Of a stretch of 62,656 bases of DNA, positions 16,701 through 36,243 are shown one piece after another. Each line of letters opens with the position of its first letter. Within the stretch, counting starts at the first letter, position 1. The stretch is from positions 1 through 62,656 of IMG/VR virus record IMGVR_UViG_3300025141_013570; one strand, 5' to 3'. This DNA comes from a virus. The notes under the pieces were generated by a model, which worked only from the letters and a program-made list of their open reading frames with translations, searched no databases and was not told where the DNA came from. The translations under genes and the position numbers were made by a program.

Positions 16701-19700
16701 GTTTGACTGAACTACCTGATAGTTCTTCTGGTAGTTGCCAATACTCCCTTGCGCAAGAACGCCGGAAAGACGAGTCCCCAACGAAGAGGTGACCATCTTG
16801 ATATTCTGAATGTTTACGGGGCGCTTGGTGCCGACGTTTCTTAGGCGCTGGGCTGTGGGTATCGATGCCCGGGTGTCATTTGTCGCACCGCCTTCGTAGT
16901 TCGGCGGAACAACACCCAACATTGGAGTATCGAAGTCTGCACCAGTGGCAGAGTCGACTCCAGAGAATTCAATCTTCCATCCTTCGGCTCGATCGAGATG
17001 GTCATCGCTCCCAGCATTAATCTCGGTATGACGATACTGACGGCCACCCACAAACTTTTCTGTGAATGGGCTCTGCATTGGAATATCAGAGTTATATACC
17101 AGATCATGATGAAGGTTTGTAATCATTGTTCCGGTTGCATAGTTATTCACAACCGCAGCATTGGCACCGTCAGTTACCGAAGATGAATACAAGCTAAAGG
17201 GAAGAATTAAATTGCCATCCGCTTTTCTAGTGTTCGCGGGGGACCGATTGGCATCCGGGTCCATCTCGAATCCTAGGCGCTGCTTATAAGCGGGGTGATA
17301 AACATCGGTCGTGTTGCGTAATTGTTCCACCCCTGATCCATACCCGACCACCACATTGACTGCCGCGTTGTTGTTAGTGGGGCCAAACGGCTCGGTTGCA
17401 CGATAAACAAAATTAACTCTTTTGTTCTGATTAAACCCAACACCACCGAGTGTATAATTACCGCTTCCGCCAAACCTATAGGGAGCCTGCTGGGCTCGTT
17501 TGTTGGCGGTCTTGATAGAGGTTAGTATGGTTTGTTTGTTCTTGTTGACTTTGGCGGCCGCGGCCCTAATGGCTAAATTGTTTCGTTCAGCCCGAGTTTG
17601 CCACCAAATAGATTTTTGATTTTGAGGCTGGACCCCACCGGGGGCGGCAGGGGGAGGAGCATGGTCGAGGGCCCATCGTTTAAAATTAATCGGCTGTGAT
17701 GTGCCGAGGACACGCTTTGTATAGGCATTAGCCGAATAGAAACCAGTTCCCTGAGGATCATCTTCCGGAGAGGCCGACATTTCGGCGGACTCCTCGGAAC
17801 CGACTGCAGTACCTTCAATAGCGCTCAACTGCTGTTTGACGTTCTGGAATTTATGCTGGTACTTGCTGCGCTCCAACATGTGGCTTTCGATCACAGTTCT
17901 TACGTTTTCCGCAAAGTCTGCGGAAGCTGGCACTAGTTGCTGCAGCATCATCGTTAGTGAGGAATCAAACCACTTATAGAATTCATAAAACTTCTCGAAA
18001 TCTATCTCATTGTTCGACACGCGCGAGAAAAAGCGCTGGCGTAAAACTTTAAGTCCCTTGTACTCGGGTCGATATCGATTTACTGGTTCCCCAATAATAT
18101 TGTGGATGTCTTTCAAAGTAGCAAAGTAGTTAATCATCTCAACCGATAAGGCTTGAGCCATACTCTTTTCAAATGCATAGAAAAGCTCAATCGGCCGGGA
18201 TTCGCGAGTAAAGACTTTCTGCTCCATTAAGTTAAGAACAGTAACGGCATCGCTGCTCTGAATGTTCTCTGGCAATTGTAGTTTTGACGCAACCACGAAA
18301 TCCTTATCTGTCACCTTAATGGAAGATGCTGGGAAGCCCGTGCCTAGGGCCGGGTGTTGCTTACCGAGAATATTCCCTAACCAGTCAAACCTGGTAGCGG
18401 CTGTGACAGCGGACCCAGAAAACTCGTCACTAACGGTGAACTGCCCTGATGTGTTGGATCCAGTAACCTGCGAGAACTCCCAATTAAAAGCTAGTGTATC
18501 GGCCTGCAGGATTTCTCCTCCATAGGACCCTGATGCTTGGAAAGGGTATGCATAAGAGTGAGGCTTAAAAGACCCATAATTTCGGGTATCAAACGCGTGG
18601 CCTCGTAAGGCGCGGTCGTTTAGATAGTCCATCCAATATCTACAAGCGTTAACCTTGACGTCCGCTGATTGAAGAACCGACCCGGTGAAATTGGTGCGAT
18701 GGGCTCCGATGTACGTTCTCCTGCTTCCAGTTATAAACCCTACCGGAGGAGTAATGGTTTCGCTAACCGTAAACTCATTACGAAGAACCCCTGCCTCGAC
18801 CTGTACACCATGAAGCTCGACTGTGTATTTTAAGCCAGTTTGAGCTTGAGCGGCGAGGCCGGCCAAGGGGTAGTTTTCGGGCTTAATCCTTACTGCCAAA
18901 TTCCAATTGGAATTATTATAAGTGTCTTGATAGAGTGGAGATGTGAGCTTCGGAACGTGTCCGCCAACTGTACCCGTGAGAACAAACCGAACATTGGGAG
19001 AAGTTATTTCATCTCGTACAGCATAAACCTGGAAGTTTGTATCATCTAACGAGTGCCAGGTCGTATTCGTTTCAGAACTAACTGGCTGGTGGACTCCAAA
19101 TAGGGATGCACTAATAACGTTCGTATCAAAATAGAAGGTCGCGCTTTGATCCGGCTTTTTGGGAAATAAAATATCAGCTTCGAGTGTGTGAGCATAACCC
19201 CCGGTAAGATGATTGCTGCCGAGGACTATGCCCGTTGTGTTGGTGGTATCCAGAGGGTCTTGAAATTGAAAGACTGACGCATTCTTATTGTCTGCCGTAT
19301 TAAAATCTACAAATTTTTCAGCTACTGAAACGTTGCGCCTGTTGTTCCTGACTTCGTACTCGACTCCGCCGGCATATACATTCAGTTTAACCAATTCATC
19401 GTCGATGCCAAAACATCGCATCAAGTTGCGGAAAGACTTTTCAGTACCCTTTGATTTATAAATGTAAACTAGATTATTATAAATGTTATGATAAATCGTA
19501 TTTTTAATATCCTGCAAAGACTTTTCATACAATCGATCTTCACTGCGATCGGCTAGCTTCTCAAGAACATCTGCATCAATAAAAAGCTCCGGTGCTACGA
19601 AACCAGCTGACTGAAGTAGATGCTCTGCGAAAGGAAGAGGCTTGTGACTACTGGAAGGATAGGTAACGGTTTGTAGCTTGGACAGCGAACCAATTTGTAA

Positions 19701-21219: not shown

Positions 21220-22713
21220 TTATTTTTCAACCCTAAATTTGAACGTTTGTGGCTGCTCTTGCCAGTCTCCTATACTATCATTGTAATAAGATAATTTAAT
21301 TTGATACATATATCCGCTTTCTAATAGGGACATATCTAAATCGAAATAATTTCCTTCTTTGTCATAAGACAAAAATGTGGAGTAATTGGAGCCCGTTCCA
21401 TAAGGTATGGCGTTAAGATTGTCGGTAACTCGTCGAATACTGTATGAAGCGCTGGTTATAATGTCAGTTGGATTTACAGACGTAGCCTTCGTATAGATTG
21501 TCGGATTCCAGTTTTTGTCTCTCACAAAAAATCTAAAGCGAGCCTTGTCGCTTGGTGCATATGTTTTCTTTAAGTTCTTACAGCTAGTGATGCGATTGAA
21601 AGTCGGCGCAGACTGGAATGTTGGCAATACTTCAGGGTATATTGATCCAGTAAAATACTCGACGGCGCCACTGTGCCACACATCAAAAAGCGCAGTTAGT
21701 GGAGTCGCGGCAGCTGTAATAGCCACTTGGGCCCTGTATATTCCGGCACTAATGTGTGTGCCCGTTACGTTGAGGGCAGCATTGTGTAGGGTCATCTTAG
21801 ACGCCGTGGGTGCTGTCGACCCGGAATACAGAGACATTAGAATATTGTTTGTCCCCACCGCTGGAATATTTACCAAACGGCCACGAACATAATTATAGAG
21901 ATAGAGGTTATTAAGATTGTCAGCAGCAGGGGCGAGAGAACTAGAATAGAAGAAGTTCTCACGATCATCCTGCACGCGAGAATCCCAGCGGGCTTCTAAA
22001 ACAGGCCGCTTAAAGAAGAATTCCGTCGAGCGAGCGAAAAAACGCTTCGTATAATAAGACTGGGTTGCTCCGTTGGGGTTGTTGATTAAAACCGAGGTAT
22101 TCTGTCCTGTTGAACTAGAGAAGTAAGCTTCCTGGCTAGCTGTCAGTCGGAGGCCGACGCCGTAGTTAGTAAGAGATCCGCCGATCCACTTCTCCACCAA
22201 AGGAGTAATATTGACCTCCATGTTTTCATAACCCATCGGGAAGGAAACGTTATAGTTAGAGCCAGTTCGATAGTCCCCACCAATTGTTGTCCAGCTGGTG
22301 GTGTTGTTGGCCTTTAGCCAATTAGATGTTCCCAAGTCCTTGTATTCATCCATATCTAGACCGGTACCCTCAACCCATGATCTAGAAATGGGAGCAACCA
22401 CGATATTAAACCCCTGTGGTAGTGTGAAGGGGTGCTCGGCATTAAAGACTTTAAGGTAAAACGATACGCTTCCGCTGGCGGGAATTGTGCCTGCGGTGCG
22501 AGCAGCGGAAATGCGAGTAACAGGAAAGTTTACAAGAGCGCGTGAAAGCTCTTGTGTGAGGCCAGCAGAGCCCGTTCCTTGGCCGTAGAGCGAGAAGACT
22601 GCAAGAGAGTCAGCATAGCCCATGTTAGAGCCCGTGCCGCGCGTTGTGAGGCCTCCTTCGAAGGCGTTCGTAACCGTAGTGTCAGCACTGGCTGTGTACC
22701 GAAAAATCGCCAT
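21220..22713 (-). CDS. DNRLRE-like structural/adhesin protein (497 aa)
   Basis: Residues 1-200 follow the pattern of DNRLRE-type beta-sandwich domains: ADTTVTNAF, then RALVNFPVTRI, ISRSWVEGTGLDMDEY, a W/GGDY loop, VNITPLVEKWI and NYGVGLRL. Such domains are known from secreted surface and fibre-like proteins. The C-terminal half is beta-rich and ends in an Ig-like segment (YQIKLSYYNDSIGDWQEQPQ). There is no signal peptide, which fits a virion protein assembled in the cytoplasm. The start ATG overlaps the gp6-like stop by one base. The next gene is the LamG giant, so both may form the host-contact layer attached to the baseplate wedge. Confidence 0.75.
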   Translation of the reverse strand: MAIFRYTASADTTVTNAFEGGLTTRGTGSNMGYADSLAVFSLYGQGTGSAGLTQELSRALVNFPVTRISAARTAGTIPASGSVSFYLKVFNAEHPFTLPQGFNIVVAPISRSWVEGTGLDMDEYKDLGTSNWLKANNTTSWTTIGGDYRTGSNYNVSFPMGYENMEVNITPLVEKWIGGSLTNYGVGLRLTASQEAYFSSSTGQNTSVLINNPNGATQSYYTKRFFARSTEFFFKRPVLEARWDSRVQDDRENFFYSSSLAPAADNLNNLYLYNYVRGRLVNIPAVGTNNILMSLYSGSTAPTASKMTLHNAALNVTGTHISAGIYRAQVAITAAATPLTALFDVWHSGAVEYFTGSIYPEVLPTFQSAPTFNRITSCKNLKKTYAPSDKARFRFFVRDKNWNPTIYTKATSVNPTDIITSASYSIRRVTDNLNAIPYGTGSNYSTFLSYDKEGNYFDLDMSLLESGYMYQIKLSYYNDSIGDWQEQPQTFKFRVEK

Positions 22714-24509
22714 TAGCCGATGGTTCCTTTAATGTCCACGTTTGGAAACTTAAGTTCAAAAATTGCTGTGGAAGGCGCGCGGAGGATATTACCATCGCTA
22801 GATAAAGCAGCCTCAAAATCAAAATTACTCTGGCTATATTGTCCCGCCTGCTTGGGAACGATTTCTATATACTGAACTCCCTGAACTCCTCGTACGCCTA
22901 TTATCTCGCGCTGAATGTCGGCAATCTGAATAGATTCTCCTATGTCGAATTGATTTTCTTCATAATAAGCGTTTAAAGTGTCGTTAATTCTATTTAAAAC
23001 AGTGTATTTGCTGCTATTTGCATCAATGGTGACGCGATAACTAATCCCAAAATTTATAATTTCAGCATCTAATATGTCTATTGTATCGTTAATCATGCGG
23101 TAACCGCCGAGCCACGTGGCCACATTCCGCTTTAGCGTTCCATTGGAAGCAATCAGTTTACCACTAACGTCAGTCGACACCACATACAAATTCAAGTTTT
23201 TCTTAAACTCGGCGAAATCCTTTACAATAGTGGCGCGATGAACTGACCCAAACTTGCCGGGCATCCCATATACAATGGACTGATAGTCTTGAGCTGTAAC
23301 TGCTCGGTTCTGTGTCGCAAAATAGCTTATAACCCGTTGCTTAATTTCTTCAGAGGAGGGAAGAGCAATATCTCCCACAAAGGGCTCGTCATTCGTTACT
23401 TCCAAAGAAGATTCTACTGCCGTACGAGTAGCAGAAAGAAGTGTCGACAAGTCGCCCGAGAAGTTAAAAATTGGCGCCTGAACAGTCATAATAGAATTAA
23501 TAGAAGCGTTTACGTCTGCGGTAGTATTAATGCGGTAAGCAATACGTAAGGTAGTATCAGCGGGAGCAACGCCCAGCTTGTCATTTGAAATAAGTTTGGT
23601 GGGATCAAAATCCGGGTCTGTTATATAATTCCTTCCGTGTAAGTCTAACATTAAACTTGTAGGATCTAAAACAGAATTGTTTAACAATTCTGAATCGGAG
23701 CCATGGCCAAACTGCAAGTATGATCTAGTGGAAGTTTGTTCGAGCACAAATCTGCGAGCTACCGGCACCGCTTTGAGAATATTTGGAACTGTCGAGCGAG
23801 TGGTCGCACTGTTGCGAATTGCTTTATAGATAGTATTTTGAGAAAGATTGTCTACTTGCACATATTCATGGCCCTCGCTATCAACGACACTAATAATGTC
23901 AGCCACGCGAGCATTACTTAACGGAACTTGTAAAAAGCGTTGAAATGCTCCGATTTTCACCTCCTCCACGGCGGCTCGACCAGAAACGGCGCGACCCAGA
24001 GCACGAATAATATAAGATGTTGCCTCTCCGGCTGCAGATGCCTCAGCAGCTACCACCTGGTTGCCGGCGGCGGCAAAATTAATGCTATCTATAAGAGTAT
24101 ATGCTCCTCCCCCCGTCGAGCCAAAGGTGGATCCAGCACCCAAAACTGGGGCATACTCTAGATCTGGGCCGCCGCCGATGGTGGCAGCGGGTACCTTTAT
24201 ATAAAACGTAAGGAGGCCATAAGATGAGGGGCTCGCGGGGAGTCTAAAACCAAACTGGCGGGCGTGGCGCACTACGTTATCATATTGTACCGAGGAGTCT
24301 AGAAAGCTTTCGTTTGCTTCGTAGTCCACATAAAAGGATAAGATATCCCCAATGTATGCCACGGTGTCGAGCATCAAAGATCCAAACGAAGCCTCACTAA
24401 AATCTCCATAAGTATTGGGATAATACCTTTTCGCATAATTTTCTAAGTCATTGCGAATTGAAGAATAATCTCTATTAGTATAATTTATAGCAGGCGGTTT
24501 TTTAGGCAT
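22713..24509 (-). CDS. gp6: Baseplate wedge protein, T4 gp6-like (baseplate J family)
   Basis: A 598-residue protein, close to the 660 residues of T4 gp6. The N-terminus is diagnostic: INYTNRDYSSIRNDLENYAK, then FSEASFGSLMLDTVAYIGDI and LSFYVDYEANESFLDSS, followed by a VVRHARQFGFRLPASPSSYG block. The middle section around residue 400 (ITAQDY-type: RAVTAQDYQSIVYGMPGKFG) is the conserved signature of baseplate-J/gp6 proteins. In T4 this protein dimerises to form the ring of baseplate wedges and triggers sheath contraction. It lies 19 bases after gp25, the order seen in many myophages. This is the strongest family assignment in the virion module. Confidence 0.92.
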   Translation of the reverse strand: MPKKPPAINYTNRDYSSIRNDLENYAKRYYPNTYGDFSEASFGSLMLDTVAYIGDILSFYVDYEANESFLDSSVQYDNVVRHARQFGFRLPASPSSYGLLTFYIKVPAATIGGGPDLEYAPVLGAGSTFGSTGGGAYTLIDSINFAAAGNQVVAAEASAAGEATSYIIRALGRAVSGRAAVEEVKIGAFQRFLQVPLSNARVADIISVVDSEGHEYVQVDNLSQNTIYKAIRNSATTRSTVPNILKAVPVARRFVLEQTSTRSYLQFGHGSDSELLNNSVLDPTSLMLDLHGRNYITDPDFDPTKLISNDKLGVAPADTTLRIAYRINTTADVNASINSIMTVQAPIFNFSGDLSTLLSATRTAVESSLEVTNDEPFVGDIALPSSEEIKQRVISYFATQNRAVTAQDYQSIVYGMPGKFGSVHRATIVKDFAEFKKNLNLYVVSTDVSGKLIASNGTLKRNVATWLGGYRMINDTIDILDAEIINFGISYRVTIDANSSKYTVLNRINDTLNAYYEENQFDIGESIQIADIQREIIGVRGVQGVQYIEIVPKQAGQYSQSNFDFEAALSSDGNILRAPSTAIFELKFPNVDIKGTIG

Positions 24510-24528: not shown

Positions 24529-24921
24529 TTAGTTGTCAAACTGTATTTCAAGCATTGTACTCGTCTGTAAAGGAAGTATTGTAAATTCTATTGCAATAGA
24601 AATATCATTTGGAAAAAGATCTGGTGAATTTTCAGGAACTGAAAAGTCTATCCTGTTGACCTGAATATACTTCAAATATCGTTTAGTTTGTTCCAATATA
24701 CGGTCGTTGATCGTCTCATATGTGGAGGGGTCATTCAACTCAAAAAGATACCTCTTCACCCCCACACCAAAATCGGGATTCATCATACGTTCGCCCGGGT
24801 TTGTCAGCAGCAGCATTTTAAAGTTCTGTCGCGCTAATGAAACATAGTCGGTTATTAAGTTATATGGCCCAAAAACACTGTCTATTGTTAAGGGTAGTTT
24901 AGGTGAGATCCCAGATGACAT
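24529..24921 (-). CDS. gp25: Baseplate wedge subunit, gp25-like
   Basis: A 130-residue protein, the usual size for the gp25/W/TssE family. It shows the typical core: ISPKLPLTIDSVFGPYNLI, NFKMLLLTNPGERMMNPDFG, VGVKRYLFEL, then the helix with NDRILEQTKRYLKYIQVNRI. The family's conserved motif around L-x-T-x-P-G-E-R-x-x-x-P-x-F-G is complete. In T4, gp25 joins the wedge to the first sheath ring and nucleates sheath assembly. It is located between the 2014-residue baseplate protein (20-base gap) and gp6, matching known myophage synteny. Confidence 0.93.
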   Translation of the reverse strand: MSSGISPKLPLTIDSVFGPYNLITDYVSLARQNFKMLLLTNPGERMMNPDFGVGVKRYLFELNDPSTYETINDRILEQTKRYLKYIQVNRIDFSVPENSPDLFPNDISIAIEFTILPLQTSTMLEIQFDN

Positions 24922-24941: not shown

Positions 24942-27900
24942 TTAACACTCACTTGCATTTTCGCCTGAAACATTATCCATTCCATCGTCCACGTCAAAGG
25001 CATCTTCAAGTTTGTCTTCAAGAAGCCCCTTTAGAAGCATCAATAGTAAGTAGACAATACCAAAGGGGCCCGGAGGCATACAAAGGAGGCCTAAAAATGT
25101 ACCCGTAAAGTCGACGCCCTCTACTGTAATTTTGGGGAAGAAGTTGTCTTTAACTTCATCCGGAACATTATTTCGAAGGTCCCGAGGATCTTCCATGCCG
25201 GCCGTATATTTAAGGCCTTCCCAGCCCTCGCCCCCGGGGATTGTAAAGGGCTCCTTGGGGGGATTCCCGATAAAGACTGCGCCGGGGATTCCCAGGAGCC
25301 CAGTGCCCAAGAAGTTCTCGGAATCAATAGCAGGTAGGCGCCCCTCCGTCTCCTGTGCGGCAGTGCCTTCTCCCAAAACAAATCCTGCTTGGGTTGCCTT
25401 CATTGCCACAGCCAGCAGACAGAAAAGTATCCTTAAAACCCCTTCCCCATCTATATTGGGAGCAACACCCGGCATCATATTCTCGGCGCCGGGGGAGTCG
25501 TCGTACTCCGGAGAGTCGGGCGGAACCGGCATCTCTTTTAAGGGATTCAGGGCGCCCGATGTATCAATGCCTCCAGCCATTGTGCCGAAAGCAAACCCCG
25601 TAACATCTCTAACAATCTTCCAAATAGCCACGTGAGGATCAAGCATTTCGCTCACGCCCCGCAAAATTTGGATAGGAGTTTCAATAAGCATTTTGAGAAT
25701 AAAATCAATAGCCGACTGTTTGAGGCCCGATAAGGGATCGTCGCTGTTTGCCATCATAGCAGCCTCTGCTTGAGGAGAAACTCTTTCCGGCTGTGTAAAC
25801 CCGTCTTCATTGAGCACGGAATCTACAAAGATTTGAATGCACCTTTGTTTCGGAGCAAGGAGGAGTTTATCATATTGAGGGAAAAAGTTTGTAGTAAGAT
25901 AGTAATTTTCCATTATGGGAACCATGGTGATGAGATCCCGATTAAACGCTTTCCCAAAATAGTCCTCAAAAACCGGGTCGGCGATAATACCTATTAATTC
26001 GCTATTGGTGGCCTCTTTACCGTAATCGCTAAGTTGAGTCTGGAGTATCGGCTCCTCTCGGGTTCCGTATTGAGTAACCCCATCAATTTCCATGAGGCCA
26101 TGGCGAAGTTCGGTTTCACCAATTGATACCTGGTTGGCCAAGGGAATCCTAAGGTCTAGCCTGGACAAAACGAACCTTGCGGGGGGATTCACAGAAGATT
26201 GGTGCATCTCGGGGCCGCGGAGATGTGGCGCGAGGCCTATGTTTTTTGATAGCCGCGGCCGATCGGCCTGCGCAACTCCTCCATACTCATTGCCACTATG
26301 ATTTCCGCAATATGGGCTATAATACACTATATCGTATTTAAGACCCACTCCCTCAAACTGGATGGGGCTCAAGGTTGTCGGGTCGCCGAAGATATCTTGG
26401 GTTACATTGCGCTCGGAGGCCCCGGCAGACTGATTGAATAGCATTTCTTTAAATAATTCTATTTCAATTCCATAGTTCTCTCCGGTTGTTGCTGTTAATA
26501 TTTCTGGTACCGTACCATTTTCAAGGTGGGCAACGTTCTCCCACACTACTTTTCGCTCTAGCACAATTTTACCATACCGCAAAAAGGAAAAACCATCTAT
26601 ATCTCCAGCTCGTGCATCCATTTGGGAGCGCAATGAGCGCTCGGCAATCGTGTTTCGGCCCAGGTTCTGAAAATGTGTTTCGTTCCCAAGCAGTCCTGGG
26701 AAAACGCCAATACCACCGCCAGCAGCTTCGTTTACTTTTAGTCTAATTCGTTTCCCGGCCAGGTCGTCATCAACGGCCCAGGACTGCTTTCCTTGGCCTC
26801 TGGGACCGCTGCCAAAATTCATGGCTTCGAAGCCCAAAATGTCTTCTACAAAGGCTCGTGTTAACTTCTTTGGAGAAAGGTTTGGCGACGACTTCGTTAC
26901 TGCATTGGCGACAGCTGTCTTAGACTTAAGAATACGCTGCCCGGCACAGAATTCCACTATAGCGGGGAAGTCTGGGGCACTAAACGTTTTGCCCGCGGGG
27001 AAAATGACATCGCCCGCCACATTGGTGAGGCCCCCTTTAGCAACTGCCGAAGAGCGCGCTGCCTTTTTAGTAAAATACTCCACCATCTTTCGACTGATGA
27101 GGGGCTGGCTTTTTACCATGTCTAAAACTTTTTCGCGAATCTGAATTGAGAGGAACTCTTTAGTAAGAGGAGACCCCAACAAATCGTCAACGTGGTAGGC
27201 TGAAAAAACAAAAATATTTTTAATGATAAATTGAGCAATATGAATTTGAATAAGTAACAGAAACATGCCATACCGGATGACGTCTCGTATCTTTCCTTCC
27301 ATGCCCTGTAGACCGGGCGGCTTATCGTGACACAGAGCGTCGGCCATCTCGTCATTAAGTTCTTTCATGAGTCCGTTAATGTCTAGCAGATCGGCTACAT
27401 CGTCCGGGAGACAATTGCGGTTATCATGGAAGAAGGTAAGAGAGTTAAGTTTTGTAATATCAAAAACTCCATTAGTTCTTATGTAGTTAAAGCTGCTTTC
27501 TACGAGCCCGGCAAAAGCGCTCGGAAACAACAGCGTATCCAAATCTCTCTCTAATAGTTTGTATGCCGTAGGAGTGCCATAAAGATCCGGGCTCTCAACC
27601 TCATACTGGGCCAGAATGGGGTCACTAAATAGGCCGATATACGGATTGACATTTCGCGCTGGTGCGAATCCCGGGGGCTCATCAATATTAAAATCTATGG
27701 CTGCCGAGGACGTCGGCAGCAGAGCCGAATTAAGGACAACCTGTACATATTGTCCGTTAGCTTCGGCCGAGGATTTCATTGGGTATGTGATACGCAAGGC
27801 ATCTATATCAGAAGTTGTGTCGGCTAACACGGGCTCAAGTTTGGGGATGCCGCTACTATAAGTCTGCCCAGAACTAACCCATTGTCGTGGGCCCACGCGC

Positions 27901-30900
27901 GTGGGGAATTTAAAGCTCAACTTCACGGGCTTATATGAGTACGGGCTACTCATGAGCGGAGCCTGAGAGGTGAATTCGCCGGCGGTCACAAGGTCGGGGC
28001 CGTCGACATCTGTTGAGGCCCGAGGATTAAATAGAACACTAGAATAATCTTCTGTTTTTAAATAATTCTGGAATTTTTGAGTAAAGCGTCGAGGGAAAGA
28101 GTAAGTGGGAGCTACAGGAACTGGATTTTCCATTGAGTCCTGCAGGCCATTGATTCTGTCTTCAATCTCCTGCAGCGCATCCGCGAACTCGCCGTTTTCC
28201 ATCAGCTTGGTCAGCACGTCGACAAGCACCTCTATTACATCTGCAACGGCGTCGGCTTCAACTCCCAGAATTTCACCCACATCACAATGTTCGTTCATTT
28301 CTTGAATGAGACTATCAATCTCTTCGAAGGCCCGGGACATACCATTCATTATGTCTTGTCCGACTCGGTTCATCTCGTCCAGTCCCTCACCCACAACGCC
28401 GGCGGCATCGAGGGTTGCGCCCATCAGTTGGCTTGATTGACTGGTCTCTATGTCGGGAACCTTTAGCGCCTGCTGGGCAGCACCGAGCGAATTAACAAAA
28501 TCCATCTCGATTACCTCTACTACAGTTTGTAAGACAGATGGAATATCGGTATTTACCAATGCATTGTCCACATAGCCGGCTTTCGCCGGGCAATCTAAAT
28601 TAATACGACCGCCAGGATTATCTAATTGTATACCGTTTTCAGCTATGTCGCGGAGAGTATCGTCGACATAGGGAGGCGCAATTTCTTCAAGTAAGCAAAT
28701 GTTATCTAGATTTTCTACGTACACATCCGTAGCCACCTGATTGCAGAACTCCGACATATCAACAAATTCCGATAGGCGCGCGAAGAAGCCAAGCAGCGCA
28801 GAATAGGTATTCAGCGTACGTCGAATATTTAAGTTCTCATACGAAAGATTAAAATCTAGGATTTTCTCTACAGTAGCATAAGGGATCTCATCGCGATTTA
28901 TAAAAAGATAACATATTTCTACAGAGCTTAACATAGGAGACAGGTCTGACAAATATTTCATCATTTCAGCGAAGGTGAGACCTTTATCTCCAAAAAGACT
29001 ATCTAGGGCTGACTGATTAGATATGTTGGGGAGGTCCAGGTCTGGCATTCCTTGGTCGACGAGGGCGCCTAAATCATTCTCTCCGAAATCTTCGGCGCGC
29101 CCAGAGGTAAAGGGGCACACCTCTTTCAACAATGCGGCAAGTTGCTTAATTATCTCAAGGACTCCCTCCATTAGGGTGTCCAACATCATGCCAAGAATTG
29201 CCTTCCACATATCACCATCGATAGTTTTAGGTTTAAACATATCAAGATCAAGAGAGGGCATTGTAACCGTGGGACGAGGAGGGGCGGGCTCAAGGTAGAG
29301 CTCTTGTCCCGTTTGCTGAATAGCACTTGCGACAGCTGATGCCAGGCGCTCAAAGGCCGGCGCAAGGCCAAACGTCAAGCAGATAATGGCCTCTTTCGCT
29401 AGTTCCTGAATTCCGATTTGGCGTATTACTACGGCTAGCTTCGAGTCCTTTTTCATCCCGGGGATTGGAAAATCACCATCCAGAACCTTTCCGATATGTT
29501 TAGTGATATCCGCGGCCGTCTTGAGAACCTTTTTCTTTTCCTCCATGCGCACTTTTTTATAAATTTCTGGATTTTCCCGTACGCGTTGGCGATATTCTCT
29601 CAATTGCTTTACTCCCAACGGCCCGGACGCGCCGAGGAAGCCCTTTTCTAAATTTTTTACATCTCCAAGATCAATAATATTTAATTTGGCGGCCTCCTTA
29701 AGAAACAAATTTTTAAAATCTCCGGGTTTGGGGAGTGTCGAGAAATCAAAGTTATCCTCAAAACCAAAAGACCCCGGGGGGCTGGACGATAGAAAATCTA
29801 CGAAAGAAAAGTCGGGCGAGCCGATGTCGCCCAGCATTTTCATTGTCTCCACCAATGTCTCATACATTTTCAACGTGTCAAGAGTAAAGGGGTCGCGCCA
29901 GCGCTTGTTCCACACTATGTTGGTCATATAGCCAGTGCGCAGGTGCTGGCGGTCGGGACCGAGTTCATTGACAGTATAGGACATTCCAGAAATTGCTGTT
30001 CCAGTTTCGTCCCACCCAAATTCGATGTAAATATTGTCAGCTTCTTGAAATTCTAATCCTGTAAGATCAACAGTACCCGACGCCATAGTAAAATCATTGC
30101 CGATGTCCTTAACAACTTCCATAACGATAATATTTAATATTTTCATCAAGGAGGATTGGATGGCCCCGAAATCAAGAGGATTCGGCAATGTGCCTTCGAA
30201 CATATTCATCTGTTCGTTAAAAGAAGCCAACCCATCGTTAACAAGATTATTGTTGGATACCATAGACCCGATCTGCAAGGTGGTAACCCCTCCGCCCCCT
30301 GAAATCTTTTCGTCCATATTAAAGGCGCCTAGTGCAGAATCCAAATTTGGAAGGTTCTTCATCTGTCGCAATAAAATCATTAAAACAGACGGGTAGGGCA
30401 CCACCAAAAATTGGGTATCGGTTGGGCCCATGTCGGAAGGCTCACTAAGGCCGTCGATTTTTTGAAACGCGGTAGCCTCGTGGGCCCCTGCCGGCGGATA
30501 CCCAACGGACCGGGCTGCTACGTCTTTAAGTGTCTCTGCCTCGGCCTTTGTTATCTCAAATGATAGAGGAAGCTCAAGGGTTGCCAGGACCAAGTGCTTA
30601 GTCTTCTTCAGCTCCGGATTATGCGGAAAATAGTATACCGCGGTAACATTGTCTTTCAGGGTTTGTCGTAGCCTCCGATATGCAGCTTCGAATACGGGAT
30701 CAAGGCTCTCTGTGTCTCCCTTGTTGCGTCGATGGGTGCGGTAATTAAGATAATATTCAGGAAAAAAATGAAGTATATATCGATCTACAGCTTTGCTTTT
30801 CACCGCTGGAAGTTGACCTTCAAAGTCTTCAACGTTCTCAAATTTATCAAACAACAGTTTAACTTTAACAGTAGTGTCACTAGGGTTCTCGCCTTTTACA

Positions 30901-30986
30901 ATGAAGGGCACATTGCGGCCTCGCGAACGATAGCCGCCGGCATTTGCTTCTGCATCATTTAAAAGATAGTTGTCAATTGTGGACAT
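24942..30986 (-). CDS. Giant tail/baseplate protein (2014 aa)
   Basis: A 2014-residue protein starting MSTIDNYLLNDAEANAGGYR. The first 450 residues are soluble alpha/beta; residues about 440-700 are Lys/Glu-rich helical; around 640-1000 there are many acidic helices (DEMNRVGQDIMNGMSRAFEE). Hydrophobic helices occur near 1280-1310 (FLLLIQIHIAQFIIKNIFVF) and close to the C-terminus (GIVYLLLMLLKGLLEDKLED), which ends acidic. Long helices plus short hydrophobic segments recall tape-measure proteins. However, the location next to gp25 and the globular N-terminus fit a baseplate hub or wedge scaffold equally well. No peptidase or lysozyme motif was found. The assignment as a tail component is firm from context; the precise role is open. 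Confidence 0.75.
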   Translation of the reverse strand: MSTIDNYLLNDAEANAGGYRSRGRNVPFIVKGENPSDTTVKVKLLFDKFENVEDFEGQLPAVKSKAVDRYILHFFPEYYLNYRTHRRNKGDTESLDPVFEAAYRRLRQTLKDNVTAVYYFPHNPELKKTKHLVLATLELPLSFEITKAEAETLKDVAARSVGYPPAGAHEATAFQKIDGLSEPSDMGPTDTQFLVVPYPSVLMILLRQMKNLPNLDSALGAFNMDEKISGGGGVTTLQIGSMVSNNNLVNDGLASFNEQMNMFEGTLPNPLDFGAIQSSLMKILNIIVMEVVKDIGNDFTMASGTVDLTGLEFQEADNIYIEFGWDETGTAISGMSYTVNELGPDRQHLRTGYMTNIVWNKRWRDPFTLDTLKMYETLVETMKMLGDIGSPDFSFVDFLSSSPPGSFGFEDNFDFSTLPKPGDFKNLFLKEAAKLNIIDLGDVKNLEKGFLGASGPLGVKQLREYRQRVRENPEIYKKVRMEEKKKVLKTAADITKHIGKVLDGDFPIPGMKKDSKLAVVIRQIGIQELAKEAIICLTFGLAPAFERLASAVASAIQQTGQELYLEPAPPRPTVTMPSLDLDMFKPKTIDGDMWKAILGMMLDTLMEGVLEIIKQLAALLKEVCPFTSGRAEDFGENDLGALVDQGMPDLDLPNISNQSALDSLFGDKGLTFAEMMKYLSDLSPMLSSVEICYLFINRDEIPYATVEKILDFNLSYENLNIRRTLNTYSALLGFFARLSEFVDMSEFCNQVATDVYVENLDNICLLEEIAPPYVDDTLRDIAENGIQLDNPGGRINLDCPAKAGYVDNALVNTDIPSVLQTVVEVIEMDFVNSLGAAQQALKVPDIETSQSSQLMGATLDAAGVVGEGLDEMNRVGQDIMNGMSRAFEEIDSLIQEMNEHCDVGEILGVEADAVADVIEVLVDVLTKLMENGEFADALQEIEDRINGLQDSMENPVPVAPTYSFPRRFTQKFQNYLKTEDYSSVLFNPRASTDVDGPDLVTAGEFTSQAPLMSSPYSYKPVKLSFKFPTRVGPRQWVSSGQTYSSGIPKLEPVLADTTSDIDALRITYPMKSSAEANGQYVQVVLNSALLPTSSAAIDFNIDEPPGFAPARNVNPYIGLFSDPILAQYEVESPDLYGTPTAYKLLERDLDTLLFPSAFAGLVESSFNYIRTNGVFDITKLNSLTFFHDNRNCLPDDVADLLDINGLMKELNDEMADALCHDKPPGLQGMEGKIRDVIRYGMFLLLIQIHIAQFIIKNIFVFSAYHVDDLLGSPLTKEFLSIQIREKVLDMVKSQPLISRKMVEYFTKKAARSSAVAKGGLTNVAGDVIFPAGKTFSAPDFPAIVEFCAGQRILKSKTAVANAVTKSSPNLSPKKLTRAFVEDILGFEAMNFGSGPRGQGKQSWAVDDDLAGKRIRLKVNEAAGGGIGVFPGLLGNETHFQNLGRNTIAERSLRSQMDARAGDIDGFSFLRYGKIVLERKVVWENVAHLENGTVPEILTATTGENYGIEIELFKEMLFNQSAGASERNVTQDIFGDPTTLSPIQFEGVGLKYDIVYYSPYCGNHSGNEYGGVAQADRPRLSKNIGLAPHLRGPEMHQSSVNPPARFVLSRLDLRIPLANQVSIGETELRHGLMEIDGVTQYGTREEPILQTQLSDYGKEATNSELIGIIADPVFEDYFGKAFNRDLITMVPIMENYYLTTNFFPQYDKLLLAPKQRCIQIFVDSVLNEDGFTQPERVSPQAEAAMMANSDDPLSGLKQSAIDFILKMLIETPIQILRGVSEMLDPHVAIWKIVRDVTGFAFGTMAGGIDTSGALNPLKEMPVPPDSPEYDDSPGAENMMPGVAPNIDGEGVLRILFCLLAVAMKATQAGFVLGEGTAAQETEGRLPAIDSENFLGTGLLGIPGAVFIGNPPKEPFTIPGGEGWEGLKYTAGMEDPRDLRNNVPDEVKDNFFPKITVEGVDFTGTFLGLLCMPPGPFGIVYLLLMLLKGLLEDKLEDAFDVDDGMDNVSGENASEC

Positions 30987-30997
30987 TCAATAAATAC

Positions 30998-32032
30998 CTA
31001 ATTATTAGAGTTATAGGGACTCAAGATATTCAAAGGGCCCCCCTTCTCGTCGACCGTCTCTGCGCCGGTGGATGATAAAAATTCCATAATTACTTGATTA
31101 AGAGCAGCGTTCAATGACATACCGCCCGTGTCAACCTTCGTAACATTGTTAATAAGGACATTGAGCCCATCCTTCATTGTCAGATCAAAGTCGGGCGCAG
31201 TCTTCATGCCATAAAAGGGAGCTATGTGCGTGTGCTTAATCAGTGCAGTATGAAGCTTGCGAGTTTCTTTAACATAGGTCATCGTCGAGGAGACAAAGTC
31301 TTGAAGTACTTTCGCCAAAACTTCAAGAAAAATCCGAAGGTTCTCGCCTTTCACCATAGGCTGTAACGCTGCCGCATCATTACACGCCACCAAGTCGATG
31401 CCGTACCCGCTTGTAAGTGCGTCTCCGAGGCGGCCGCCTTGTGAGTTCTGCTCATCAGTTCGAGTCACAAGTTTTATGTTTTCGCGAGCGATCAGGCGGA
31501 CAGTATCCGCTTTCACTGCAACGCAGGAGCGTGGCTCTTCTCTATTTGTGTTCCCCACGTGTCCAGGCTTAAGCTGAAAATATGTATCCACGTCTGCCAT
31601 CTGACTCACGTAGATTCGAGCGGCGTCCAGCTTAAAATTAGAGTCAACCCTATAGGGCTGACACTTTCCATCAATCATAGTCTTCTGCGGGGTCTCCCAC
31701 GGCCCTTTTGAGCCGCCGGCTCGGCCGGCCACAATATCGATGGCAGCGCAGTTGGTGGCATTGCTTCCGCCAAAGCCGCTGCTTTCAAGATTAGGACGAT
31801 CGAGTCCCAAAACTATCCATGCATTTCCAGGATTGGGTGCATCGCCCGAGTTATAGACGGTTTCTCGACCAGGGAGTGCGTTAAACGACGGAGAATCAAA
31901 GTTGGTTCGGGCGCGGCCGTTAAAGCCTAGATACTCGAGTTTACCGTCGTCATCGAGGGCATCATAATACTCCTTCTGATCTTTACACATGAGACTCAAA
32001 TCAATGAGTTTATTCTGTTTTCTTCTTCCCAT
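30998..32032 (-). CDS. Putative central spike-tip protein with HxH motif (344 aa)
   Basis: A 344-residue protein. The central part (about 140-235) has alternating short strands resembling a spike beta-helix: AARIYVSQMADVDTYF, VAVKADTVRLIARENIKLVT, GYGIDLVACND. It is followed by LQPMVKGENLRIFLEVLAKV and then a HTH sequence (about 270) in ALIKHTHIAPFYG. Metal-binding HxH motifs close to the tip are known in P2 gpV and phi92-type membrane-piercing spikes; similarity here is by pattern only. It lies directly downstream of the three lytic tail-tip genes, where the C-terminal beta-helix of T4 gp5 would be expected if that protein had been split. A ribosome-binding site AAGGAAGGAAAG precedes the start. 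Confidence 0.6.
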   Translation of the reverse strand: MGRRKQNKLIDLSLMCKDQKEYYDALDDDGKLEYLGFNGRARTNFDSPSFNALPGRETVYNSGDAPNPGNAWIVLGLDRPNLESSGFGGSNATNCAAIDIVAGRAGGSKGPWETPQKTMIDGKCQPYRVDSNFKLDAARIYVSQMADVDTYFQLKPGHVGNTNREEPRSCVAVKADTVRLIARENIKLVTRTDEQNSQGGRLGDALTSGYGIDLVACNDAAALQPMVKGENLRIFLEVLAKVLQDFVSSTMTYVKETRKLHTALIKHTHIAPFYGMKTAPDFDLTMKDGLNVLINNVTKVDTGGMSLNAALNQVIMEFLSSTGAETVDEKGGPLNILSPYNSNN

Positions 32033-32087: not shown

Positions 32088-33386
32088 TTAGGCTGTTGCC
32101 GACCCAAAAAGCGCGATCGCTTCGGAACTTCCTTCCAAGTTTTGTCTCGTCCTCTGCAGGGCGCTGATATAGACCTCTGGTTTCTCGTGCGCAGCATTTT
32201 TTCCTACATATTTGTAGAAAGACTCGCCGCGATAAACCATTTGAATCTTATCGCCGCCTATCTCGTCAAACTGAACCGGGACCCCGGCCCATTCCATTGC
32301 AATTGACTGGGCGGCTCCGACAATATCATCGCTTTGCCCAGTCAAATACAAACCGGCGCGACCCCTTCGATAGAGAAGCAGCTCAATGCCAAGGATATCC
32401 TGGGTAACATTGTCGTAATTATAAGATGTCGCACTAATGTCCGCAACTCTGATCGCGGATTTGAGCGTCCCTGGAGTTATCTGATATCTCCCCGATGCAA
32501 ACAGTTGATCAGCGGCCATTTTGCTTTGGACCACACTAAGTTTTACATCTGCAGGGTCAGAGTCTCTAAACAATTCCTCACTCATGTTAAAAGCTCGATA
32601 GGTTCCTGGGTGGTTTCCGGCATCGTAACCCCGACGTCCGGATTCGGGCTTGGCGATCGCATCTAATATGGGCTTAAATAGTCTGTAGATTGGCTTTAGT
32701 TCGGCGTAAGTGTACTTGGGGCCCTTGTTCATCTGCCGCGGGCCTACTCCGGAGGGCTGTGGGGCTGGACCTCCTCGCTGGCCGCCTACGGTTGAGCGAC
32801 TGGAGCCACCTCCATATCCCAAGGCGCCTCCATGGCCTCCCTTAAAAGCGAGTTCGCTGCTGTTTCCCTTCATTCCTGTCCAACGTAAAGGAATAGCCCC
32901 TTCGTATTCAATAATCATCGGATCCGTTAAACTAACTCTGTCTACATACCGAACCGTAACCAGGCCGCCAATTGGAAGTTGGCCATGTTTGGCTTCGACA
33001 TCTGTTGTCACATAAACATCCGGATATGTTTGCAGTACCGGATCTGCTCCGTCCAGAGGATAAGGCCGGGATTCAAGTTCGGGGATATATACCTTATACA
33101 CGAAGTATGGAGCATCAACAAGAGTGCCTTTGGAATTAGATGTATCCAATGCGATCAGGATAGAGGCCTTCTTCTGAAACGCAGCCCGGTTCGCTTGTCT
33201 TTTTGATACAACCACCCCTATAAATCTTCCTACCTTTTTAAGAGAATCAGGAGTATAAAGATCGGACATAGCTTGTCGGAGAAACTGCAGAGAGTTATCA
33301 CGTCGTGGATCTCCCTTGTTTCCGAAGCCTTCGCCAAAGTTATTAAGGGTTCCAAATTCTAGGGTATTTAAATCAAATTTAGCCAT
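32088..33386 (-). CDS. Tail-tip protein: shared N-terminal domain plus lysozyme-like domain
   Basis: A 432-residue protein and the last of three tandem paralogues. Residues 5-185 are the shared domain (LEFGTLNNFGEGF ... DAPYFVYKVYIPELESRPYP ... GGLVTVRYVDRVSLTDPMII), which looks like an OB-type barrel and ends in the GMKGNSSELAFKGG segment also present in the 430-residue paralogue. A Gly/Pro/Arg linker (186-220) leads to a lysozyme-like domain at 225-400. There, E248 in IAKPESGRRGYDAGN is the likely catalytic acid, and LFASGRYQITPGTLK is the typical substrate-cleft strand of SLT/lysozyme folds. It should cut peptidoglycan glycan strands during DNA entry. The start follows the upstream gene by 10 bases. 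Confidence 0.8.
   Translation of the reverse strand: MAKFDLNTLEFGTLNNFGEGFGNKGDPRRDNSLQFLRQAMSDLYTPDSLKKVGRFIGVVVSKRQANRAAFQKKASILIALDTSNSKGTLVDAPYFVYKVYIPELESRPYPLDGADPVLQTYPDVYVTTDVEAKHGQLPIGGLVTVRYVDRVSLTDPMIIEYEGAIPLRWTGMKGNSSELAFKGGHGGALGYGGGSSRSTVGGQRGGPAPQPSGVGPRQMNKGPKYTYAELKPIYRLFKPILDAIAKPESGRRGYDAGNHPGTYRAFNMSEELFRDSDPADVKLSVVQSKMAADQLFASGRYQITPGTLKSAIRVADISATSYNYDNVTQDILGIELLLYRRGRAGLYLTGQSDDIVGAAQSIAMEWAGVPVQFDEIGGDKIQMVYRGESFYKYVGKNAAHEKPEVYISALQRTRQNLEGSSEAIALFGSATA
33073..33116. repeat. 44-bp direct repeat, copy 1
   Basis: This segment is identical base for base to 34325-34368. It encodes the conserved VDAPYFVYKVYIPELE region of the shared tail-tip domain in two adjacent paralogues. 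Flanking sequence diverges at once on both sides. Confidence 0.9.
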
Positions 33387-33396
33387 TGTTTTGTTG

Positions 33397-34650
33397 CTAC
33401 CAGCCCATCTCTTCTTTCACCATTTTAGCTATAATCTTATGGGCCGCATCGTTGGGGTGAAGGAGGTCGGCGTCATATTCGGGTTTGAGAATAAACTTCT
33501 CCGGATCATCTGACGTGTAGTTCACCGTTCCCACTGGCGCCCAATCAACTACATAATCAAAAGAGCCGCCCTTAATAAGTCGATTATATTCTTTGGTTCC
33601 CAGTACGATTCCGCGGCCGCTGCGGGTCAGCTTCCAGCCGCTTGGCTTCTCGGTATTGGATGGGTCTGATGTTATCCACCCTCTTTTGAGGCCCCAACCA
33701 GACCATCCCTGAATCGTTAGCGCTGCCGTTTTGATCCCGGGAAATTTACTTTTTACAGTATTGACTAACCCCATTAATTGATTATAAGGTGTCTTGCCGT
33801 TTCCATTTGCTGCAAGGGAGTTCGGACCCACAAAGAAAAACACATAATCGTAATTCTTATCGCTAAAACACTCCCCATCTTCAACAGCGGTGACGAATTG
33901 TTTTTTAATATATGCGATGGTTTTGCCGCTGGAGGCGAAGCGGTCCATTTTTAAATTGTGATCAGACGCATAGGAGCTCCACCATCGAGTATAAGATGCT
34001 CCAATGGCCAGTGCGTTGTGGGGGTTTCCTTTCTTGGAGGGTACGAACATCTCGCAGCCCTTGGGAAGCTTCTTGGTCTTCTTTTTGGAATTAGACTTAT
34101 ACGTCTTCCGCGTTAATGACGCGGCATCGGACCACTCGATAGCTACATTACCATCATAGCCAACAATCATAGGATCCAAAAGATTTTCCTTGTCGGCATA
34201 TTTAACATAGGCCAGACCTCCCATGGGCAGCTCTCCATATTTTAGCTCCACATCAACAGACACATAAACATCCGCATAGGTCTGGATAACCGGGTCTTTT
34301 CCGGACAAGGGTCGTGGGCGTGCCTCAAGTTCGGGGATATATACCTTATACACGAAGTATGGAGCATCCACCGAAACAGTATCGGATGCGCCGGAGCCGG
34401 CCCGAGATAACTGTAACAATACCGATCCCTTTTTTTGAAAAGCGGCTCGGTTCACCTCTCTTTTACCCACCACAATTCCTTGAAAAGTTTCCACTGAATT
34501 CAGGCTCTGAGGGCCATATGTTTTCTCTAGTGCTCGATTTAAAAGCCCTAGAGAGTTATCCCGGCGAGGATCTGCATCTCCCCCTACTCCTTCCTTGAAG
34601 CGGTTAAGGGTACCAAAATCTAATTCACTAAATCGAAATCCACCGGACAT
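33397..34650 (-). CDS. Tail-tip protein: shared N-terminal domain plus SGNH/GDSL esterase domain
   Basis: A 417-residue protein. Start ATG 34650 overlaps the upstream TAA (TAATG) and follows AAGGAG; a GTG at 34659 is the alternative. Residues 4-175 are the shared domain. After a Lys-rich linker, residues 205-417 form an SGNH hydrolase: nucleophile Ser219 in AIGASYT (block I), Gly242 in ASSGKT (block II), Asn277 in FVGPNS (block III), and Asp395/His398 in DLLHPNDAAH (block V). All four family positions are present, so it should be active. Tail-linked SGNH enzymes often remove O-acetyl groups from peptidoglycan or surface polysaccharide. Here it probably prepares substrate for the neighbouring lysozyme and transglycosylase domains. 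Confidence 0.83.
   Translation of the reverse strand: MSGGFRFSELDFGTLNRFKEGVGGDADPRRDNSLGLLNRALEKTYGPQSLNSVETFQGIVVGKREVNRAAFQKKGSVLLQLSRAGSGASDTVSVDAPYFVYKVYIPELEARPRPLSGKDPVIQTYADVYVSVDVELKYGELPMGGLAYVKYADKENLLDPMIVGYDGNVAIEWSDAASLTRKTYKSNSKKKTKKLPKGCEMFVPSKKGNPHNALAIGASYTRWWSSYASDHNLKMDRFASSGKTIAYIKKQFVTAVEDGECFSDKNYDYVFFFVGPNSLAANGNGKTPYNQLMGLVNTVKSKFPGIKTAALTIQGWSGWGLKRGWITSDPSNTEKPSGWKLTRSGRGIVLGTKEYNRLIKGGSFDYVVDWAPVGTVNYTSDDPEKFILKPEYDADLLHPNDAAHKIIAKMVKEEMGW
34325..34368. repeat. 44-bp direct repeat, copy 2
   Basis: Identical to 33073-33116, 1252 bases away. It lies at the same codon positions of the shared domain in the SGNH paralogue. The third paralogue (region 35590-35635) encodes nearly the same peptide with many base differences. 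Confidence 0.9.
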
Positions 34651-35942
34651 TAGCCCCACTTCTCCTTTACGCGGCGGCGAGTAATAAGGCCTTGCGGATG
34701 TTGAGGATCTGCATAGCCTGAATTGACTTCTGCTGTACGCGCAGTGCCAATTACATAACTATCATCCTTCCCGATAGCCGCAGGATAAAATACAATAAAA
34801 TACCAATCAACCTCTTCAGCCATATTCCCCCTTTTGTTCTTCTCAAAATATTTTTCTACAAAATCCAGTTGTTTATCGGGGCCCATAGTCAGCAACGATT
34901 CCACGGTGGTACCTAGGGAGCCGGCTGTTCCGGCTACCGAGAACTCAGGCATAAACTGAATCAGGCCAGTGGCGGCCGTATCATGATTTATAGCATAGGG
35001 ATCAAACGTGCCACTCTCTTTCTTGAAAATCTTTTCAAGAGTGCTAACTCGCATCCCCAGCCTAGATGCAATTGCATCAATCTTGTCTTGAAATTTCGCC
35101 TTCAGCGCTGTTTGATCCTTTGAAGAAAGAATGGCATTACTAGTCCAGCTGCTGGTGCTCTTTTTAGAAAGTGGGCCCGGGAGACCGCCGCGGGCCGTGT
35201 TATTGGTCTCTCCTGTAGATAAAAACATCTCCTTCCGGATCTCTTTAAGTCTTTTAGCCTCTTTCACCATCTTCTTTTGATGTGATGTTGATCCCCGGGG
35301 ACGGTCGCCGCCGGCACCCCCAAGCATACCAGTAAGAGCCCCTGCGCGGGCTTTGGTGCCACCTTTAAACGCTGCCTCATTCGCATTGCCTTTCATGCCA
35401 TCCCATTTTAAAGGAGAGGCTCCCTGATATTCCACTATTACGGGATCTAAAAGATTTTCTAGGTCGCCGTACTCTACGGACACGAGGCCGGCAACAGGCA
35501 TCTCTGCATATTGCATATCAACGTCGGTCGAAGCATGTACATCTGCGTAGGTTTGAAGAACTGGGTCATCCGCACTCAAGGGATAAGGCCTTGATTCAAT
35601 TTCCGGAATGTACACTTTATAAATAAAATAGGGCGCGTCCACCGAAACTGGTGACGGGGTGGAATCCGAGGAGGGGCGCCCTTGGGCATATGCCGTAATG
35701 AGGGGCCCTTTTTTCTGAAACATCGCCCGACTAACTTGACGTTTAGCAACGATAACCCCATTAAAGCGCTCGACAGTTTCGAGGGCGTCTCGGCCAAAGG
35801 CCTTTCGTAAAGCATCATCTATCAGGTTTGCACTAGATTGCCGTCGCTGGTCTGCGCCCCTGTTTGTAGTTGTGTCGCGGAAATTGTTTAATGTTCCAAA
35901 CGACAACTCATCAAGAAAAAAGCCGGCTGGTCGATCACCCAT
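34650..35942 (-). CDS. Tail-tip protein: shared N-terminal domain plus lytic transglycosylase domain
   Basis: A 430-residue protein. ATG 35942 is chosen because GAGGAG lies just upstream and it overlaps the previous stop by eight bases; an in-frame ATG at 35957 would place this site inside the gene. Residues 5-195 are the shared domain (LSFGTLNNF ... DAPYFIYKVYIPEIESRPYP ... SVEYGDLENLLDPVIVEYQG, then GMKGNANEAAFKGG). A charged linker (200-275) follows, then an SLT-type transglycosylase at about 280-400. Its catalytic Glu309 is in IFKKESGTFDPYA, and TAATGLIQFMPE matches the family's G-x-x-QFMP motif. It would cleave peptidoglycan on infection. First of the three enzyme-bearing paralogues to be transcribed. 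Confidence 0.85.
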   Translation of the reverse strand: MGDRPAGFFLDELSFGTLNNFRDTTTNRGADQRRQSSANLIDDALRKAFGRDALETVERFNGVIVAKRQVSRAMFQKKGPLITAYAQGRPSSDSTPSPVSVDAPYFIYKVYIPEIESRPYPLSADDPVLQTYADVHASTDVDMQYAEMPVAGLVSVEYGDLENLLDPVIVEYQGASPLKWDGMKGNANEAAFKGGTKARAGALTGMLGGAGGDRPRGSTSHQKKMVKEAKRLKEIRKEMFLSTGETNNTARGGLPGPLSKKSTSSWTSNAILSSKDQTALKAKFQDKIDAIASRLGMRVSTLEKIFKKESGTFDPYAINHDTAATGLIQFMPEFSVAGTAGSLGTTVESLLTMGPDKQLDFVEKYFEKNKRGNMAEEVDWYFIVFYPAAIGKDDSYVIGTARTAEVNSGYADPQHPQGLITRRRVKEKWG

Positions 35943-36243
35943 TTTCCTGCTCCTCATTCAAAAGATCAAATAATTGCTCTTTGTCGTCGGCACTTAAACC
36001 GTGCTGGTGGGCTTTTTGCTTCTGAATGAGGCCGGCGAGTTTAACCATTTGTTCGTTGGAGCGCTGAAGGTTTTCAACATACTTGGCTGCAATGGGGCCA
36101 AGCTCTTTGCGTGATGCGTCCGACACCTTCATATCATTAATGGCATCCATAAGGAGCGACTTTGCCATGGCCCGGTCCTCACGAATATTAGTGGTTGTTT
36201 CTTCTAGATAATCATCTAGACTTAAATTTCGCCGCTTTCCCAT
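35935..36243 (-). CDS. Small helical protein next to late sigma factor (102 aa)
   Basis: A 102-residue, almost wholly helical protein starting MGKRRNLSLDDYLEETTTNI and ending LLNEEQENG. It is highly charged with no Cys and no membrane segment. Its start lies 22 bases inside the gp55-like gene, so the two are tightly coupled. Its size and position next to gp55 invite comparison with the T4 co-activator gp33, but I see no sequence similarity that would prove it. A small structural chaperone for the following tail-tip genes is equally possible. Unknown function. Confidence 0.65.
   Translation of the reverse strand: MGKRRNLSLDDYLEETTTNIREDRAMAKSLLMDAINDMKVSDASRKELGPIAAKYVENLQRSNEQMVKLAGLIQKQKAHQHGLSADDKEQLFDLLNEEQENG

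Follow-up and report, generated by a model that had tools for sequence, protein, structure and literature searches.

Tandem tail-tip genes with a shared docking domain and different cell-wall enzymes in a viral contig suggest a split gp5-type puncturing device

The gp5 spike is the textbook homotrimeric puncturing tip. A viral contig (IMG/VR record IMGVR_UViG_3300025141_013570; the whole stretch of 62,656 nt is called the window here) carries three tandem genes which suggest a mixed, multi-enzyme drill tip instead of the usual three identical copies. Each encodes a docking domain of one type followed by a different predicted cell-wall enzyme (Table 1). The balance of probability leans slightly towards these genes being carrier subunits of a split gp5-type puncturing device, most likely assembled as one mixed trimer. 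The three-carrier state is not peculiar to the window phage; it is one state of a modular family.

Table 1. Carrier genes, their domains and neighbouring genes in the window.
Feature	Coordinates	Strand	Description
Carrier gene 1 (P0003, 435 aa)	34650..35957	-	gp5-type OB docking domain + SLT lytic transglycosylase, predicted
Docking domain of carrier 1, residues about 1-197	35367..35957	-	
SLT cargo of carrier 1, residues 282-429	34671..35114	-	
Carrier gene 2 (P0002)	33397..34659	-	docking domain + SGNH/GDSL hydrolase, predicted
Docking domain of carrier 2, residues 5-177	34129..34647	-	
SGNH cargo of carrier 2	33397..34047	-	
Carrier gene 3 (P0001, 432 aa)	32088..33386	-	docking domain + PHROG_90-type lysozyme-like domain, predicted
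Docking domain of carrier 3, residues 1-170	32877..33386	-	segment used for fold prediction
Lysozyme-like cargo of carrier 3	32142..32699	-	
Tip/spike gene (P0004, 344 aa)	30998..32032	-	HxH; gp5C-like role inferred from position and composition
102-aa conserved gene	35935..36243	-	upstream border marker of carrier cluster across family
2014-aa protein, between tip and gp25-like gene	24942..30986	-	context
gp25-like baseplate wedge protein	24529..24921	-	context
gp6/J-like baseplate wedge protein	22713..24509	-	context; probe for finding relatives

The N-terminal region of about 180 residues is common to all three carriers, with 49-56% identity over 170-218 columns (pairwise BLASTP, E 4e-58 to 4e-64); the C-terminal parts have no BLASTP match to one another. 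This pattern of tandem paralogues had been proposed in a sequence-only reading of the DNA and is confirmed, well above chance. The same reading named the C-terminal domains as a lytic transglycosylase, an SGNH esterase and a lysozyme-like domain, and profile matches agree with it. Residues 282-429 of carrier 1 match PHROG_196 (baseplate hub; 1.5e-19), and the Pfam SLT match of this protein (0.0014) is under the curated cut-off. The Pfam GDSL/SGNH match of carrier 2 (2e-5) is also under the curated cut-off. Carrier 3 matches PHROG_90 (endolysin; 6e-14) and has no match in Pfam. The catalytic residues that had been named are present and conserved among relatives, with numbering that depends on the choice of start. 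Carrier 1 has 435 residues as a full ORF and 430 if an internal ATG is used; its catalytic Glu is Glu314 in the first case and Glu309 in the second. Carrier 2 has 420 residues from a GTG and 417 from an ATG. Its Ser222, Asn280 and His401 (219, 277 and 398 in the shorter form) lie in the blocks GAS222, GPN280 and DLLH401 (Ser, Asn, Asp-x-x-His), which have counterparts in relatives. Glu248 of carrier 3 is invariant in relatives. Judged by sequence, a peptidoglycan-cleaving domain with a conserved catalytic Glu follows the OB domain in two carriers (SLT and PHROG_90 lysozyme-like); the SGNH paralogue is not a glycosidase. The ends of the three genes overlap or nearly adjoin, and the ATG of carrier 2 overlaps the upstream stop as TGATG, the A being common to ATG and TGA.

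Sequence/profile searches of solved structures gave no match for the docking domain or for carrier 3 as a whole, and the fold of the carrier 3 docking domain was predicted with AF2. With 11 sequences, a weak OB-like model was obtained which matched mostly OB folds in the PDB (ribosomal S12, MCM10, IF-1) and also one chain of the phage P1 baseplate. With 27 sequences, the model has a five-stranded OB-like core (pLDDT about 80-88) and is moderate overall (mean pLDDT 69, pTM 0.61); its PDB matches are mainly S12, plus baculovirus LEF-3. The top matches in a viral structure library are a small group of viral proteins, most of them without names (E down to 4e-12); one is labelled M23 peptidase and comes from an uncultured marine virus. 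Gp5 OB-fold proteins, baseplate hub and tail lysozyme proteins and baseplate central spike proteins make up many of the top 50 library matches, each individually weak (E 0.004 to 0.06). By hhalign, the last strands of the docking domain match cyanophage gp5 weakly (E 0.009, probability 4.5%). Given the predicted OB fold and the many T4-type gp5 hub proteins in the viral library, the best reading is that the docking domain is likely a gp5-type OB adapter. The models thus favour the relation to the OB/gp5 hub fold that had been suggested for the shared domain. The best viral-library fold matches are A0A1B1IUR3, A0A1B1IUR4 and A0A1B1IUT8; the first two accessions are consecutive, so they are possibly tandem carriers in one deposited record.

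The gene adjoining carrier 3 is the HxH spike-tip gene that had been placed next in the operon, and its His267-x-His269 is invariant in 14 family members. The tip had no match to solved structures in a sequence/profile search. Profile comparison with other spikes gave nothing significant, so a beta-helix in the tip is presumed. The neighbouring genes are T4-like: wedge proteins of gp25-like and gp6/J-like type are encoded there, and one gene weakly matches a late sigma factor. No gp27-like hub protein was identified within the window. The 2014-residue protein is without any family match and is a possible hub; related large genes also come after the tip in the relatives that were read. The 102-residue gene is about 65-87% identical over most of the family and adjoins the weak late-sigma-factor match. 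Further away, a 3499-residue tail-region protein (10713-21212) has a LamG-like stretch near its start, by eye. By eye, the long block at 37887-58940, from the tail genes to a PhoH-like gene, holds genes of sugar-nucleotide, radical-SAM-like, glycosyltransferase-like and hydroxylase-like kinds, which would suit the modification of glycans or of a surface.

Relatives were sought in IMG/VR. Scans for close relatives with carrier 3 and with a three-row alignment found none, so the wedge protein was used as a probe; docking-domain alignments and the 102-residue upstream gene were also used. The docking domain is encoded in 88 viral contigs, the window included, and the family appears to be one of uncultured marine phages. 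Among 50,697 named phage records, the shared domain gave chance-level matches only, none significant; none was confirmed in 84,980 prokaryote species (bacteria and archaea, one genome each). Judged by the wedge protein, Microcystis phage Mel-JY01 and the Flavobacterium immuto phages come nearest among named phages, at only about 30% identity. In the regions read of Mel-JY01, immuto and an uncultured 484-kb phage, profile search revealed no docking domain and no tip.

Both borders of the carrier cluster (the 102-residue gene and the tip gene) are present in 79 anchored loci. Each has one tip gene. There is one carrier in 58 loci, two in 10, three in six and more than three in none; no carrier was recognised in the other five. 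The three-carrier contigs are the window, L125 (= L101), L126 (= L106), L178, L192 and L193. An assembly artefact was rejected as the source of the triple; the three-copy state occurs in six contigs, and loci with two copies turn up repeatedly in independent assemblies. A ceiling of three copies was considered as a mark of a trimer, but carries little weight at these small numbers. Sets of two are commoner than sets of three (10 versus 6), and a strict 1:1:1 trimer is thus not the family rule.

In nearly every complete locus, the carrier or carriers lie between the 102-residue gene and one HxH tip gene. Together with the OB-fold prediction, this position, directly upstream of the tip, fits the earlier idea of a gp5 that looks as if it were split. 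It is also possible to place the carriers at other baseplate sites, for example at the wedge or around the hub, and not as gp5-type hub subunits. The docking domain has no direct structural match to a hub complex, and its AF2 model goes beyond a minimal OB fold, with additional helices and a lengthy N-terminal region; the 2014-residue neighbour is uncharacterised. However, gp5-type hub proteins are frequent among the phage structural neighbours of the docking domain and the carrier genes abut the tip gene in complete loci, which makes such a placement improbable.

The docking domains have duplicated repeatedly; at least eight separate duplications were counted from their tree. Those of the window form their own clade (support 99/93). 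L125, L126 and L054 share three old docking paralogue types, which are 49-64% identical by position versus 34-46% across positions (58, 49 and 54% by position for L125 versus L126; 35-46% between non-corresponding positions). The enzymes that occupy the same position in these three contigs are unrelated. SGNH cargos that are 42% identical over 318 columns are joined to one docking type in L126 and to another in L054. The SLT cargo of carrier 1 shares 67-68% identity with cargos of L150 and L141, where the docking domains are only 30% identical. The lysozyme-like cargo of carrier 3 shares 41% identity over 236 aa with one cargo of L193, where the docking domains are much more distant. Docking domains thus descend with the tail, and the enzymes are swapped. 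That every docking copy is a recent, interchangeable duplicate is rejected for L125, L126 and L054 by the position-specific identity; for the window, L192 and L193 it may hold. The proposal that three gene products have replaced one homotrimer draws support from the single tip, as against one to three carriers, and from the old position-specific paralogues in one lineage. Overall, the sequence-only reading was mostly correct in its anatomy, and its mechanism is plausible.

About 15 enzyme classes are found behind the docking domain. They are SLT (two types), PHROG_90 lysozyme-like, PF11860 muramidase, GH24, GH19-like, PF18013 tail lysozyme (two types), M23, M15_3, VanY/M15_4, Amidase_2, Amidase_3, DUF2272, SGNH, phosphatase-like and alpha/beta esterase-like domains. 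The majority of loci manage with one enzyme; in some, one carrier bears fused cargo (muramidase and SGNH, or muramidase, SGNH and VanY). No enzyme class repeats within 14 distinct tandem sets, where 3.6 repeats are expected (P 0.008; 0.06 if two PF18013-like types in L192 are merged, and 0.10 on further removal of one related set). SGNH is present in 10 of the 14 tandem sets and in three fused sets, and in none of 54 single-enzyme single-copy loci (Fisher P 3e-9, uncorrected for relatedness). It is always accompanied by a glycosidase and is never the sole enzyme.

Some cargos were noted in their own right. DUF2272 is an uncharacterised bacterial domain family; its recurrence as carrier cargo (L101:2251-3540, L146:5687-6922 and the contigs of L095, L103, L118 and L153) suggests that it is a cell-wall enzyme. 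An HCxxGxxR protein-tyrosine/dual-specificity phosphatase-like domain is the cargo of a third carrier (L106:9869-11290, minus strand), and a phosphatase-like domain with HCxxGxxR also lies just upstream of the carriers at the truncated end of another contig (L054:4011-4571, minus strand). Such a domain is unexpected in a tail tip. Very long proteins (679 to 1380 aa) occupy the carrier position at L123:2339 onward, L200:9307 onward and L202:9281-12559. Alpha/beta-esterase-like regions are found in those of L200 (weak Pfam match) and L123 (by eye), and the latter has a MepA-like end, also by eye; in the L202 protein no docking domain was recognised.

Two further explanations concern how the three carriers are used. 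The first is that they are alternative tips: each virion would have a homotrimer of one carrier, and the population mixture would fit different hosts or wall states. Homotrimers must work, since most relatives have a single carrier, and the docking domains of the window are mutually closest, which could mean that they are interchangeable. However, linkage of the three genes is tight, and a general reading of the window showed no switch. One lineage has kept its docking domains position-distinct over long divergence, and a tip with SGNH only would be unlike any single-carrier phage seen. Alternative tips are therefore fairly unlikely. The second explanation is neutral duplication, in which tandem copies are transient steps in enzyme gain before loss or fusion, and their combined action is unselected. 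The many independent duplications and the single-copy relatives with one or fused enzymes are consistent with this. It is nevertheless improbable; L125, L126 and L054 have kept an old multi-copy state with open reading frames, the sets are complementary and SGNH is restricted to combinations.

For the window, a mixed trimer is judged most likely on the grounds of gene linkage, complementarity, the restriction of SGNH to combinations, the fused equivalents and the old position-specific paralogues. In the proposed device, the shared N-terminal adapter would dock between the tail hub and a trimeric spike, and the separate next gene would provide the spike tip, equivalent to gp5C. With docking domain and spike on separate polypeptides, one to three different carriers could be loaded per spike; in the window, three would sit together in a single mixed trimer. 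Cutting of the glycan strands would fall to the transglycosylase and the lysozyme-like domain. The SGNH esterase would strip substituents, most likely O-acetyl groups, which block both glycosidases; action on acetylated peptidoglycan is suggested by its constant pairing with a glycosidase. A stronger form is an obligate hetero-oligomeric tip in a family of marine myophages, in which three non-equivalent OB adapters would have fixed positions on a trimeric spike, each with a slot for a wall enzyme that is exchanged horizontally. This is a tentative proposal with somewhat less than an even chance of being right; if true, enzyme combinations could be reshuffled without rebuilding the tail. A split gp5 with swappable, combinable enzymes would show how phages fit mixtures of wall activities to host walls, and its docking domain, from uncultured marine phages, is compatible with about 15 enzyme classes. 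Two testable predictions follow: that subunits mix, and that de-acetylation aids the glycosidases.

T4 gp5 is cleaved into gp5* (OB and lysozyme) and gp5C (the trimeric spike); both parts stay associated with gp27 (PMC3004832). The window resembles it in having an OB adapter followed by a wall enzyme beside a spike; the mature T4 chains are also separate (PMC3004832). Unlike in T4, adapter-enzyme and tip are separate genes, and the carriers end after the enzyme domain, without a C-terminal triple-stranded beta-helix in the same gene. The family also differs in its range of enzyme classes, with up to three different adapter-enzyme genes together, and has no sequence-level match to gp5 in the profile search of solved structures. 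The hub of Anabaena phage A-1(L) displays lysozyme, endoglucanase and peptidase-like domains, and likewise has several wall-hydrolase domains at the baseplate hub; these are all in one hub protein (trimeric gp15), however, and not in paralogous subunits (PMC10966104). The fold of the docking domain also matches baseplate hub and tail lysozyme proteins of T4-type cyanophages, but the cyanophage protein is single and large, with adapter and spike. No tandem paralogues were seen in the stretch of one cyanophage record that was examined, and a keyword search of open-licence papers turned up no phage in which gp5-type carriers lie in tandem with a different enzyme on each.

In VgrG, hub, OB and spike form one fused protein, whereas in the window the OB adapter alone bears the enzyme and the tip is separate. 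VgrG-1, -2 and -3 of V. cholerae, which make a gp5/gp27-like trimeric spike, are like the carriers in being paralogues with different ('evolved') C-terminal domains, and a VgrG heterotrimer has been proposed for type VI secretion spikes (PMC8668125, PMC3166118). VgrG heterotrimers are a precedent for a mixed trimer, which in the window is suggested by the genetic pattern; where one species needed a mixed VgrG spike, however, effectors and not the VgrGs themselves proved to be the cause (PMC8668125). The settings also differ, with peptidoglycan enzymes on a phage virion in place of toxins. If the split version holds, the carriers would be a natural phage parallel to VgrG heterotrimers.
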